Assembly: GCA_016870115.1 (NCBI GenBank)
Contig: VGCH01000021.1
Coordinates: 1 to 49,913, forward strand
DNA length: 49,913 nt
Direction: 5' to 3'
DNA from: Alphaproteobacteria bacterium
Lineage (GTDB): Bacteria > Pseudomonadota > Alphaproteobacteria > Reyranellales > Reyranellaceae
The first letter of the stretch is position 1; every line of letters starts with the position of its first letter. The position numbers and the translations under genes were made by a program. The notes beneath the pieces were generated by a model that was given only the letters and a program-made list of their open reading frames with translations, had not been told where the DNA came from and did not search any database. This document shows, in pieces, positions 19-27,829 of the stretch.

Positions 19-146
19 CTAGAGCGGAATGGGAATAGATGGAACCGCATGCGGTTCCATCTATTCCCATTCGCGCGCCCGATCGGTGTGTGTTTCAGGA
101 GGCACTATGAGTTCAGCTGGTCCCAGGTGAACTCATAGTGCTCTAG
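19..146. repeat. CTAG-ended double-hairpin repeat, copy A
   Basis: A noncoding element running from CTAGAGC (19-25) to its inverse GCTCTAG (140-146). It holds two hairpins. Positions 27-72 form a perfect 46-base palindrome centred on GCATGC. Positions 102-115 pair perfectly with 128-141 (14 bp). A GC-rich linker containing GATCGGTGTGTG separates them. A closely related element lies at 26390-26516, and its stem sequences differ by paired changes, so the hairpins rather than the primary sequence are conserved. It contains no ORF or transposase, so it is a REP- or MITE-like nonautonomous repeat. Seen: the palindromes and the second copy. Inferred: mobility and any function. Confidence 0.85.
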
Positions 147-25189: not shown

Positions 25190-26392
25190 ATGCGGCTCGT
25201 GATTGTGGTGTGTCTGGCCCAGGTGCTGGTGCAGCTCGGCGCCTTCTTCTGGCCGGCGCTGCTGCCGGGCATGATGCCGCTTTGGAACCTCGACAACGGT
25301 GCCGCCGGCTGGATCACCGCGAGCTTCTACGGCGCCTATATGCTGGCTGTGCCGGTTCTGGTCACCCTGACCGACCGGGTGCCGGCCAAGCGCGTCTATC
25401 TCTTCGGCGTGGCCTGTACGGTGCTGGGTCACGGGCTGTTCGCCTGGCTGGCCGAGGGGTTTTGGTCGGCGCTGGCGCTGCGGGCACTGACCGGCGTCGG
25501 GTGGGCCGGAACCTACATGACCGGGCTGAAGCTCCTCGCCGACCAGGTCGACTCGCGGGCCATGTCGCGCGCGGTCACCGGCCACGCCGCCGGCATCGGG
25601 ATCTCGGGGGCCCTGTCCTTCGTCGCCGCCGATCTCATCGCCGATCAGGCCGGTTGGGCGGCGGCCTTCGCGGTGGCGGCCGCTTGCGCCGCGGTCGCAT
25701 GGGTCATGGTCGCGGTCGCCGCACCAACCCGCCCGTCGCCGGGTGCGGCGGTAGGGGGGCGGCTGTTCGACTTCCGACCCGTCTTCGCGAATCGCTCAGC
25801 GATGGCCTACGCGTCGGCCTACTGCGTGCACACGCTGGAGATGAGCGCGCTCAGGGGCTGGGCGGTCGTGTTCCTCGGCTGGGCGGCCGTGACGTCGGGC
25901 GGCGAGGCGTGGCTGGCGCCCGCGCTGGTCGCCACCATCCTGGGACTTGTCGGAACCGCCGCGAGCGTGATGGGAAACGAGCTGGCGATTCGGCTGGGCC
26001 GGGCCCGGTTCATCTCGCTGGTCATGCTGATCACGGCGGCGATGGCGGTGGGAATAGCGCCGCTCGGCGCGACCTCCTACGGGATCGCCGTGGCGGTGCT
26101 GACGCTCTACTCCGCGCTGGTCTGGCTCGACTCGTCGTCGCTGACCGCTGGTGCGGCCGGCACTGCCGATCCGGCGCGGCGCGGCGCCACGCTCGCGGTC
26201 CATTCGATGCTGGGCTACGCCGGTGGCTTCGTCGGACCCATCGTGGTCGGCGAGATTCTGGACGCGATGGGTGGGCGAACTGTGCCGGGCTGGACCGCCG
26301 CCTTCGGCGCGGTGGCGGCTTTGGGACTGGCCGCCCTCCTGATCTTCCGACGCCTGCGGCCGCGCGATCTAGATGGTGATCGCGGCCGATAG
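25190..26392 (+). CDS. Major facilitator superfamily transporter
   Basis: A 400-residue polytopic protein with about 12 hydrophobic segments. An MFS loop 2-3 pattern is seen as TDRVPAKRVYLFGV, and the GWAGTYMTGLKLLADQV region follows in the fourth helix area. It lacks any extra domain. The substrate is unknown; efflux of the substrate or product of the divergent monooxygenase/esterase operon is possible because the two start 78 bases apart. Its stop codon TAG (26390-26392) is supplied by the first bases of the repeat element that follows. Confidence 0.88.
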   Translation: MRLVIVVCLAQVLVQLGAFFWPALLPGMMPLWNLDNGAAGWITASFYGAYMLAVPVLVTLTDRVPAKRVYLFGVACTVLGHGLFAWLAEGFWSALALRALTGVGWAGTYMTGLKLLADQVDSRAMSRAVTGHAAGIGISGALSFVAADLIADQAGWAAAFAVAAACAAVAWVMVAVAAPTRPSPGAAVGGRLFDFRPVFANRSAMAYASAYCVHTLEMSALRGWAVVFLGWAAVTSGGEAWLAPALVATILGLVGTAASVMGNELAIRLGRARFISLVMLITAAMAVGIAPLGATSYGIAVAVLTLYSALVWLDSSSLTAGAAGTADPARRGATLAVHSMLGYAGGFVGPIVVGEILDAMGGRTVPGWTAAFGAVAALGLAALLIFRRLRPRDLDGDRGR

Positions 26393-26516
26393 AGCGGAAT
26401 GGGATCACGTGGAACCACATGAGGTTCCACGTGATCCCATTCGCGCGCGCGATCGGTGTGTCTTGCAGGAGGCACAATGAGTTCAGCTGATTCCAGCTAA
26501 ACTCATTGTGCTCTAG
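26390..26516. repeat. CTAG-type double-hairpin repeat, copy B
   Basis: Same architecture as 19-146. The first palindrome is 26397-26442 with 20-base arms and a 6-base loop. The linker contains GATCGGTGTGT. The second hairpin is 26472-26511 with 17 of 18 arm positions paired, and the element ends GCTCTAG. Relative to copy A, inner stem bases differ on both sides of each stem in matching fashion (for example CACAATGAG/CTCATTGTG here against CACTATGAG/CTCATAGTG there). The left end reads ATAGAGC instead of CTAGAGC. It fills the whole space between the MFS stop and the convergent VOC stop (26518-26520). Confidence 0.85.
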
Positions 26517-26517
26517 A

Positions 26518-26952
26518 TCAGGCGGGTTGGAGCGGCGCCCGCGCGCGGGTCATCGGGTCGTAGCCCTTGACCTCTTCGATGTCGGCCTCGTTCCAGAAAT
26601 TCATCTCGATCATGACGCCGTCGGGATCGTGCACGAACACCTGTTGCAGCGGGCGCGCCGGCACCTTGCGCACGTCGAACTTCACGCCCTCGCGCTTCAG
26701 CGTGTCGACGGTGCCCCGGATGTCGGCGCAATTGATCGCGACATGGTCGATCGCGCCACCCCCTTGGTCGGCGCGGCCGCTTTCCGACACCAGATGCAGG
26801 ATCGCCTTGTCGCCGGCATAGAGCCAGGCGCCGGCGAAGGGGAAGGGCGGCCGGTCGCCATCGCGCAAACCGACATAGCGCTCGTAGAAGCGCACCGTGG
26901 CGGCAAGATCCTTGCAGTAGATATTGAAGTGGTCGAGCGAGAGCGCGGTCAT
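26518..26952 (-). CDS. VOC-superfamily (glyoxalase/dioxygenase fold) protein
   Basis: A 144-residue single-module VOC protein with paired beta-alpha-beta-beta-beta units: LDHFNIYCKDLAATVRFYERYVGL in the first half and IDHVAINCADIRGTVDTLKREGV in the second. Candidate metal ligands are the His of LDHF, the His of ILHLV, the His of IDHVA and the Glu of MIEMNF, consistent with an Fe, Mn or Ni enzyme. The reaction is unknown. GGGAGGAG stands before the ATG at 26952. It lies 28 bases downstream of the transglutaminase-like gene on the same strand. Confidence 0.88.
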   Translation of the reverse strand: MTALSLDHFNIYCKDLAATVRFYERYVGLRDGDRPPFPFAGAWLYAGDKAILHLVSESGRADQGGGAIDHVAINCADIRGTVDTLKREGVKFDVRKVPARPLQQVFVHDPDGVMIEMNFWNEADIEEVKGYDPMTRARAPLQPA

Positions 26953-26980
26953 AGGCTCCTCCCTGCGAGAAGCGTTGAGC

Positions 26981-27829
26981 TTAGCCCGCGGGGTCCACGG
27001 CCTCAACCCGCTCGCGCACGGCATTGAAGACATGGCTCGGGACCGCAAGCCGCGGATCGCGCGCGAGCGAGAGCAGTTCAGTCGTCGGCGCGTCAGGCTC
27101 AAGGGTGAGTGCGGCCAGCCGGTCCAGGAATGGCAGGTCGAGGTCGGAATCGGGGCCCGACATCGCCCCCCAGACATCCCATGGCAGCATCTCGCAGCCG
27201 GCGAGTGCCGCGACATCGCGGACGATGTTGCTCGCGATGAACCACAGTCCGTTCATATCCAGGAGGCCGAAACGCGTCGGATCGGCCTCGCCGCGTCGGC
27301 AGCGTTGCCAAGCGTCGCCCGCGACGAGGAATTCCGTGCGCGGCACATCGAGCGGATCGAACGCGATCCCGAAGTGACGCCGCGAGGTCGGGCAAAGCTC
27401 GGCGTCGAGCAACCGCCACGGCGTCGCGCTCGCCGCCGGCCGATACTCAACGACCCAGTGGTCCACGAAGTGACCTTCCTCGAAGTAGGTCGCGAAGCCC
27501 ACCCGGCACCGCGCCTCCCAACCCTGCACTCGCAATCCCGCGACGGTCGCCAGCGAGAAGTCGCGGCAGGTGCCGAGGAGCTTCTCGTCCACGGTCCGCG
27601 CCTGCGCGAGCGGCCGGGCATCGCGGGCCAGCAACCGGTCGAGCTGGGTCGCGAGCGGCCGGATGTGCGACTCGGCCAGCCGCTCCGGCGTGGGCGGCCG
27701 CCCGCCGAACAGCCCGGTCAAGCGTTCGTGAACCAGGAGTCCCTGAACCGCGCTCGCGACGGCGGCCGGATCGCGCGGCAGGGCGGCGAAGGCCGCGGCG
27801 TGTCTGCCCGGGTCGGACATGCGGATCAT
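26981..27829 (-). CDS. Transglutaminase-like domain protein
   Basis: About 282 residues. A Cys-His-Asp arrangement typical of transglutaminase-like thiol enzymes is visible: C88 in GTCRDFSLA, H124 in DHWVVEY and D142 in LLDAEL, with strands in the right order. It has no signal peptide, so it is probably cytosolic. Such proteins are peptidases, amidases or inactive binding proteins. The start is unsure: ATG at 27829 or 27820, with no strong ribosome site at either. It precedes the VOC gene by 28 bases and follows the LivH-type gene by 64 bases, all leftward. Function not predictable. Confidence 0.75.
   Translation of the reverse strand: MIRMSDPGRHAAAFAALPRDPAAVASAVQGLLVHERLTGLFGGRPPTPERLAESHIRPLATQLDRLLARDARPLAQARTVDEKLLGTCRDFSLATVAGLRVQGWEARCRVGFATYFEEGHFVDHWVVEYRPAASATPWRLLDAELCPTSRRHFGIAFDPLDVPRTEFLVAGDAWQRCRRGEADPTRFGLLDMNGLWFIASNIVRDVAALAGCEMLPWDVWGAMSGPDSDLDLPFLDRLAALTLEPDAPTTELLSLARDPRLAVPSHVFNAVRERVEAVDPAG

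Follow-up and report, generated by a model that had tools for sequence, protein, structure and literature searches.

Copies of the element in the window and their neighbours

The window, i.e., the whole stretch of 49,913 nucleotides that was analysed, contained two copies of a short element built of two hairpins joined by a linker, as well as a decayed third copy. The following features were distinguished:

19–146, + strand: copy 1, a candidate double-hairpin MITE with CTAG ends (core GAGC...GCTC at 22–143, flanking TA at 20–21 and 144–145)
27–72, + strand: hairpin 1 of copy 1, a perfect palindrome with 23-nt arms (arm comparison and covariation)
73–101, + strand: linker of copy 1, GCGCGC...GATCGGTGTGTGTTTCAGGAG (sequence)
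102–141, + strand: hairpin 2 of copy 1, with 19-nt arms, the outer arm being the right terminal inverted repeat (arm comparison)
143–216, + strand: older, decayed, internally deleted copy (C21:157-216), sharing the CTAG at 143–146 with copy 1 (sequence)
224–1498, − strand: FAD-dependent oxidoreductase gene, its 3' end toward copy 1 and the decayed copy (gene call and profile match)
25190–26392, + strand: MFS transporter gene, its stop TAG at 26390–26392 lying inside the left end of copy 2 (MFS_1, E-value = 2.4e-30)
26389–26516, + strand: copy 2, with left end ATAG and right end CTAG (core 26392–26513, TA at 26390–26391 and 26514–26515)
26397–26442, + strand: hairpin 1 of copy 2 (arm comparison)
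26472–26511, + strand: hairpin 2 of copy 2 (arm comparison)
26518–27216, − strand: glyoxalase/VOC-family gene, convergent, its 3' end 2 bases behind copy 2 (gene call and profile match)

In both copies, the hairpins were palindromes of 46 and 40 nt, perfect or nearly so: the complementarity of the arms was 100% (27–49/50–72) and 95% (102–120/123–141) in copy 1, and 96% (26397–26419/26420–26442) and 94% (26472–26489/26494–26511) in copy 2. The linker pattern GATCGGTGTGTNNNNCAGGAGGCAC was found three times in the window, the third occurrence being in the decayed copy, versus 0.00 expected from 100 shuffles. The preliminary description of this DNA had reported two copies with a common linker and two hairpins, which was borne out at 19–146 and 26389–26516, and a stem exchange between them (CACTATGAG/CTCATAGTG versus CACAATGAG/CTCATTGTG), which was correct and leaves the pairing intact. 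CTAG ends, attributed there to both copies, were present at both ends of copy 1 and at the right end of copy 2, whereas the left end of copy 2 was ATAG.

The sequence at the start of the window fits a nested arrangement, in which copy 1 would have been inserted at the terminal CTAG of the older decayed copy. Positions 1–341 overlap a second contig of this genome at its end (G000:C31:33105-33445) with five differences in 341 bases, reflecting either strain variation or an assembly overlap; searches thus count this locus twice, and the C31 copy was left out as not independent. Hairpin 2 at window positions 97–109 and 26467–26479 resembles a ribosome site and start (AGGAGG-CAC-N-ATG) with a very short frame, a resemblance also present in some other subfamilies (e.g., L147) and absent in others (e.g., L034). 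A homologue of the glyoxalase-family gene adjoins a copy of genome G020 (L076), where the other convergent neighbour is a different one, as judged by eye; the L076 copy and copy 2 are possibly separate insertions behind the same glyoxalase-family gene.

Distribution, termini and target sites

The element had been presented as a member of a repeated family, and a search of the whole genome and its relatives by DNA search and a covariance model confirmed this, with about 14 places in the own genome and numerous copies among its relatives. In the own genome (G000; 3.56 Mb, 59 contigs), the covariance model revealed 14 places at E ≤ 1.6e-10, with the C31/C21 overlap counted once, and ten near full-length copies were aligned. 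The DNA search gave matches in 2 of 41 genomes. Matches to the covariance model were detected in 28 of 75 genomes of the source's family, the own genome included; 18 of these 28 contained at least 15 matches and five at least 46, the counts covering both strands of the hairpins and being lower bounds. In a class-level sample, 5 of 142 genomes matched the model, namely, the own genome and four genomes from other families. Named records with copies in the scan of 94 stretches were mostly Reyranella or Rhodospirillales MAGs, together with Reyranella soli. An apparent spread to Planctomycetia was rejected: the flanks of locus L095, on a contig binned there, are those of the Reyranella locus L113, and the contig is likely mis-binned. 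The class-level match L293 was also rejected, since by eye it does not look like an element, as were three viral-contig matches to the left arm, which look like chance and have no hairpin behind them. In plasmid records, no place covering 80% of a copy was found, and four records had short matches.

The forms from other families had quite different stems on the same plan. In L287 and L291, both hairpins had inner ends resembling GCTCTG/CAGAGC, and in L289, L290, and L292, hairpin 1 did; L294 was a single hairpin with TA ends; and L162 and L164 contained two single-hairpin elements 12 bases apart, the outermost ends in L164 being CTGG and CTAA. These forms suggest that the double element may have arisen by fusion of two single-hairpin elements, the inner ends of which would have decayed in the Reyranella form and would still be recognisable in the forms of other families. 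L155 and L158 are copies in which the tip of hairpin 1 or 2 carries additional sequence. A 198-bp element at L170 (1501–1698; G012), with long terminal repeats TAGAGCACATCCCGARCAGGTGGAATCGCC around another hairpin sequence and GAATC at 21–25, is probably a different MITE of the same class.

The scan of 94 stretches required GAGCG and the inner parts of hairpin 1, so construction accounts in part for the left-end GAGC, the GAACC motif, and the perfect pairing inside hairpin 1; the scan pattern did not constrain hairpin 2, the TA flanks, or the outer stretch of hairpin 1. The copy tables drew on 80 + 14 of the 94 loci, near full-length copies on the right strand being kept, and comprised 136 copies (96 + 19 from the 94 loci, 10 from the own genome, and 11 from other genomes), of which 134 were distinct. 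Left out of the 134 were the partial own copies L011, L015, L020, L026, and L029, the own copy C31:19212, and L148; the duplicates L002, L150, and L154; and L156, L157, and L162–L171, which were short, cut, or divergent. The coordinates of L129 were extended by four bases at both ends.

Of the 134 distinct copies, 120 had TA next to GAGC at the left end and 114 at the right; the most frequent four-base end was CTAG (102 left, 79 right). Where both TAs were present, the outer bases were C..G in 79 of 102 copies, followed by C..A (7), A..G (4), C..C (4), T..G (3), G..G (3), and others. The outer bases on the two sides vary independently, which points to duplication of TA alone rather than of 4 bp.

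Empty sites were sought in 75 genomes for eight loci (L108, L100, L083, L064, L076, L104, L101, and L003). Alignable ones were found for the first four, and none was present for the last four among the relatives' loci listed in this search. The filled site of L108 was GATCGCGA-CTAG(element)CTAG-CAGTTGCT, and the empty site in G070 (93% identical) was GATCGCGA-CTAA-CGGTTGCT; of the 13 aligned relatives, the closest four had CTAA (G070, G056, and G045) or CTAG (G068), and TGA predominated among the others; in all, eight of the 13 had TGA or no TA at the junction. At L100, CTAG, TTAG, or CTAA stood at the junction in six of ten aligned relatives, with a displaced CTAG in two more. The filled site of L083 was TTAG(element)CTAG, and its 14 aligned relatives had TTAG (4), CTAG (2), CTAA (3), or GTAG (1), i.e., TA in 10, and TGA in the remaining 4. 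At L064, the sole aligned relative, G050, had GCGGCGGA-CTAG. Taken over several sites, in relatives that are not near-identical strains, these junctions point to duplication of TA at insertion. Two copies (L058, 1594–1721, and L062, 1637–1764) were located in the centre of another palindrome (TCTGATTGAACCG|CGGTTCAATCAGA), which CTAG targeting of a hairpin loop would give; palindromic flanks of at least 8 were found at 3 of 133 sites (null mean 0.4), the third being L127, in a different hairpin.

CTAG is infrequent in the genome, and those occurrences that fall outside coding sequence are often stop codons. A gene stop lay exactly at the element end in 46 of 105 copies. In loci L051–L144, the element was found at a stop codon in 44 of 102 cases versus 65 of 226 for other CTAGs (723 kb), and thus the position at gene ends is mostly due to the choice of CTAG as a target. 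The enrichment over other CTAGs had a Fisher p of 0.012 overall and 0.12 without coding sites, with gene calls made by a simple purpose-made codon model and not a standard caller. The stop codon as a separate target specificity was rejected, the CTAG background accounting for most of the effect. Because CTAG is self-complementary and TA appears to be duplicated, the gene on either side would keep its TAG stop. At L108, L100, L083, and L064, the relatives also have the stop of a flanking gene at the junction or no more than a few codons from it, so the element did not make the gene end by truncation at these four sites.

Covariation of the arms and its possible causes

In the ten own-genome copies, 92.7% of cells were paired, and 10 of 40 pairs were changed on both sides (shuffle mean 3.4; reached by 0 of 500 shuffles). 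When 15 copies of the relative G020 were included, two-sided changes affected 19 pairs and 127 cells, versus 49.8 shuffled, which was again reached by 0 of 500 shuffles, and the number of further pair types was not unusual (36 versus 34.2 shuffled; reached by 112 of 500). The shuffles do not keep relatedness, whereas slid controls do; in the latter, 0–33 cells and 0–9 pairs were two-sided in the enlarged set, and 0–4 cells and 0–3 pairs in the own copies. Since the two-sided changes exceed these relatedness-keeping controls as well as all shuffles, the claim that stem differences between copies keep the pairing stands. The preliminary description had ascribed them to selection on structure or concerted correction of the arms and not to random drift; the retention of pairing agrees with this, and both of its alternatives still fit.

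It is possible, although less likely than not, that templated correction of the palindrome (template switching), rather than selection on transposase binding, is the main process by which the arms are matched. The analysis covered the two clusters with at least five copies (29 and 34), private changes being counted in those parts of the stem that the search pattern left free. The 34-copy cluster favours templated correction: it had 67 two-sided compensated cells versus 14 one-sided, where 0.012 doubles would be expected from independent changes, and its private one-sided changes were rarer in the stem (5 of 1,768 bases) than in the linker and loop (21 of 1,122), with six private two-sided changes. 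The 29-copy cluster, however, had 12 two-sided cells versus 8 one-sided, 11 of the 12 being one shared change, and its private one-sided changes were not clearly rarer in the stem (6 of 1,508) than in the linker (6 of 928), with one private two-sided change. Moreover, the arms of different hairpins agree too, which correction inside one palindrome leaves unexplained; agreement between two hairpins needs selection on master copies or repeated fusion. The matching of the arms is compatible with either selection on master copies or templated correction.

A structured RNA or terminator kept for its function at gene 3' ends is a very improbable source of the constraint. The strong covariation, the gene stops exactly at the end in 46 of 105 copies, and the very stable folding (z = −12.2 versus shuffles for a single strand of copy 1 folded as RNA, and z = −11.5 for a single strand of copy 2 folded as DNA) would all be compatible with it. 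However, an RNA would keep G.U over A.C on its strand, and the mismatches among 5,199 pairs, counted in 130 of the 134 copies, comprised 52 G.T, 49 A.C, and 38 others (per hairpin, 26 versus 32, p = 0.51, and 26 versus 17, p = 0.22). This equality gives no sign of an RNA role, and the constraint looks to be at the DNA level. There was no orientation bias of the hairpin facing the stop codon either (33 versus 26, p = 0.43); orthologous sites without the element exist at 4 of 8 sites; the position is mostly explained by CTAG; and an Rfam search of five loci yielded seven matches, all below the gathering cut-off and mostly microRNA-like. RNA function as the main constraint was rejected on the mismatch and orientation counts. 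The same counts, together with CTAG targeting, bear on the expectation in the preliminary description that copies at gene ends would support a functional repeat: the mapping of flanks confirmed that copies are often at gene ends (44 of 102 at stops), but a functional repeat at gene ends as such was not supported. The constrained unit looks like a putative transposase-binding end, acting at the DNA level.

Relation to IS630-family elements and known repeats

DDE_3 (IS630-family) genes were detected in all 6 genomes of a first set and in 11 of 13 of a second; in this search of 19 genomes, none was found in the MITE-bearing G066 and G072. Among the 40 DDE_3 loci examined, eight elements of 1,046–1,067 bp had C-TA-GAGC...GCTC-TA-G ends, and the other loci had different ends or none recognised. 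GAATC was located at 21–25 of one end in all eight, and two further IS630 ends of this kind were found in L269 and L275, the latter with a 313-aa IS630 transposase (NF033545, E-value = 7e-63; DDE_3). Protein models named an IS630 family transposase for 5 of 5 proteins. Each MITE end is laid out as TA-GAGC-(variable box at roughly 5–13)-...-GAA(T/C)C at 21–25, like one end of these roughly 1,050-bp IS630-family elements of the same genus; the GAATC-type end is present twice in the MITE and once in each IS. GAATC was found at 21–25 of the right end in 93 of 134 copies, and GAACC at the same place of the left end in 129 of 134, the latter partly fixed by the search pattern; the GAATC motif was first noticed by eye and counted afterwards. 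The interior of the right end agreed with the best IS end at a mean of 11.9 of 21 positions, versus 7.4 shuffled, only IS ends with GAATC being used.

The box varies among the MITE subfamilies in all four arms. In a comparison of 10 IS ends with 130 distinct MITE ends, the exact box runs summed to 42, versus a mean of 15.9 and a maximum of 33 in 2,000 shuffles, the signal coming from five of the ten IS ends and the other five having runs of only 2 nt. The longest exact runs were 9 nt (L267 of G058 with a G059 MITE) and 7 nt (L269 with MITE ends). Thus, the layout of the terminal inverted repeats is like that of the IS630 family in its GAGC, in GAATC at 21–25, and in a box match above all 2,000 shuffles. 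Among the IS630 elements examined, none had both ends identical to a MITE subfamily, the box identity within the genus being partial. The single DDE_3 match in the own genome (C57, 192 aa) lay at a locus where GAGC ends could not be recognised, and no partner IS was found for this genome. A GANTC site in central hairpin 2, present in 98 of 134 copies, is the GAATC common to the IS630 ends; GANTC is the site methylated by CcrM, and a methylation switch of transposition is conceivable.

We give very little credence to a REP/BIME-type element moved by a Y1 (RAYT) tyrosine transposase reading hairpins with a tetranucleotide foot: the two hairpins, the conserved tetranucleotide at each foot, and the outward arrangement recall BIMEs, and Y1_Tnp genes occurred in 5 of 6 MITE-bearing genomes tried, but RAYT-type mobility was rejected, as the 12 Y1 loci of five genomes were not flanked by these hairpins (no CTAGAGC end pair or model match, and a lone TTAGAGC in L261), the own genome had no Y1 match, the foot is CTAG and not the GTAG or CGTC of REP (PMC3733652), the right end resembles the inverted left end, including GAA(T/C)C beside the hairpin tip, and the end layout matches IS630 instead.

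The best explanation, to which we assign a probability of about 0.87 from sequence comparison, is that the element is a non-autonomous IS630/Tc1-mariner-type transposon (MITE) with a core of about 122 bp. The family, left unnamed in the preliminary description, is thereby placed as an IS630-type MITE by its TA flanks, empty sites, common end layout, and box match, and the nonautonomous nature proposed there agrees with the short core without a transposase gene. An IS630 transposase with matching box specificity would act in trans, excising the MITE and putting it into the TA within CTAG. Behind each MITE end lies its own sequence in inverted form, and the two together make the hairpin. The four arms would change together through reading of the box by one transposase lineage, through correction of the palindrome arms in replication, or through both. 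A further proposal, which we regard as rather doubtful, is that each MITE end is a self-copying palindrome, in which template switching would write a mutation of one arm into the other, so that the boxes would change as a whole and could track new IS630 specificities or switch to them; the four arms would be retuned together, and CTAG targeting would park the element on overlapping stops with both genes intact.

The IS630-type placement would tie this unnamed family of hairpins to a transposase class already known and account for three oddities together, namely, the CTAG ends, the stop-codon position, and the covarying stems. It is also a caution that covariation in a repeat strong enough for a structured RNA can stem from a constraint that acts on transposon ends as DNA. 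Matched MITE-box/IS630-box sets from the family can serve for studying end recognition by transposases, and its many natural palindromes for measuring arm-to-arm correction.

Among known systems, enterobacterial REP/BIME are likewise paired palindromes between genes, with another foot sequence and transposase. RIME has a similar size and a two-palindrome build. RIME of Rhizobium (named in PMC2573895) and Bru-RS1/Bru-RS2 of Brucella (103–106 bp; PMC2267715, PMC10800456) are likewise alphaproteobacterial intergenic palindromic repeats of similar size, likened here by description and not by sequence. The element works in the manner of the 107-bp RUP of pneumococcus, which shares with it the size, TA at the ends, many copies, and IS630-family-like ends, and has been linked to IS630-Spn1 (PMC2229807, PMC3049150). 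RUP differs in phylum, in its 9-bp terminal repeats (PMC2229807), and in being AT-rich (PMC3049150); the excerpts of these two papers mention neither two palindromic ends nor box subfamilies. The Sphingobium plasmid element AP027332.1 (L173, about 2501–2607) likewise has CTAGAGC at its ends, is about 105 bp long with two halves resembling hairpins, and has GAATC at 21–25 of the left end (offset read from sequence), whereas its linker is different and its hairpins are imperfect. IS630 and ISY100, autonomous IS630/Tc1-mariner elements, share the TA duplication, described for IS630-family elements in PMC2170065, and the CTAG preference, the preference of IS630 for TA in CTAG being given in the title of Tenzen and Ohtsubo 1991, cited in PMC2170065. 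The IS630-family elements found here have the same GAGC...GAATC end layout as the MITE; IS630 and ISY100 encode a transposase, whereas the MITE is a core of about 122 bp with palindromic ends. No such family is named in the excerpts of the open-licence literature on comparable repeats, IS630, and Reyranella. With Bru-RS and RIME compared by description only, we assign the element to a new family of IS630-type MITEs, distinguished as a variant by two palindromic ends with subfamily-specific boxes.
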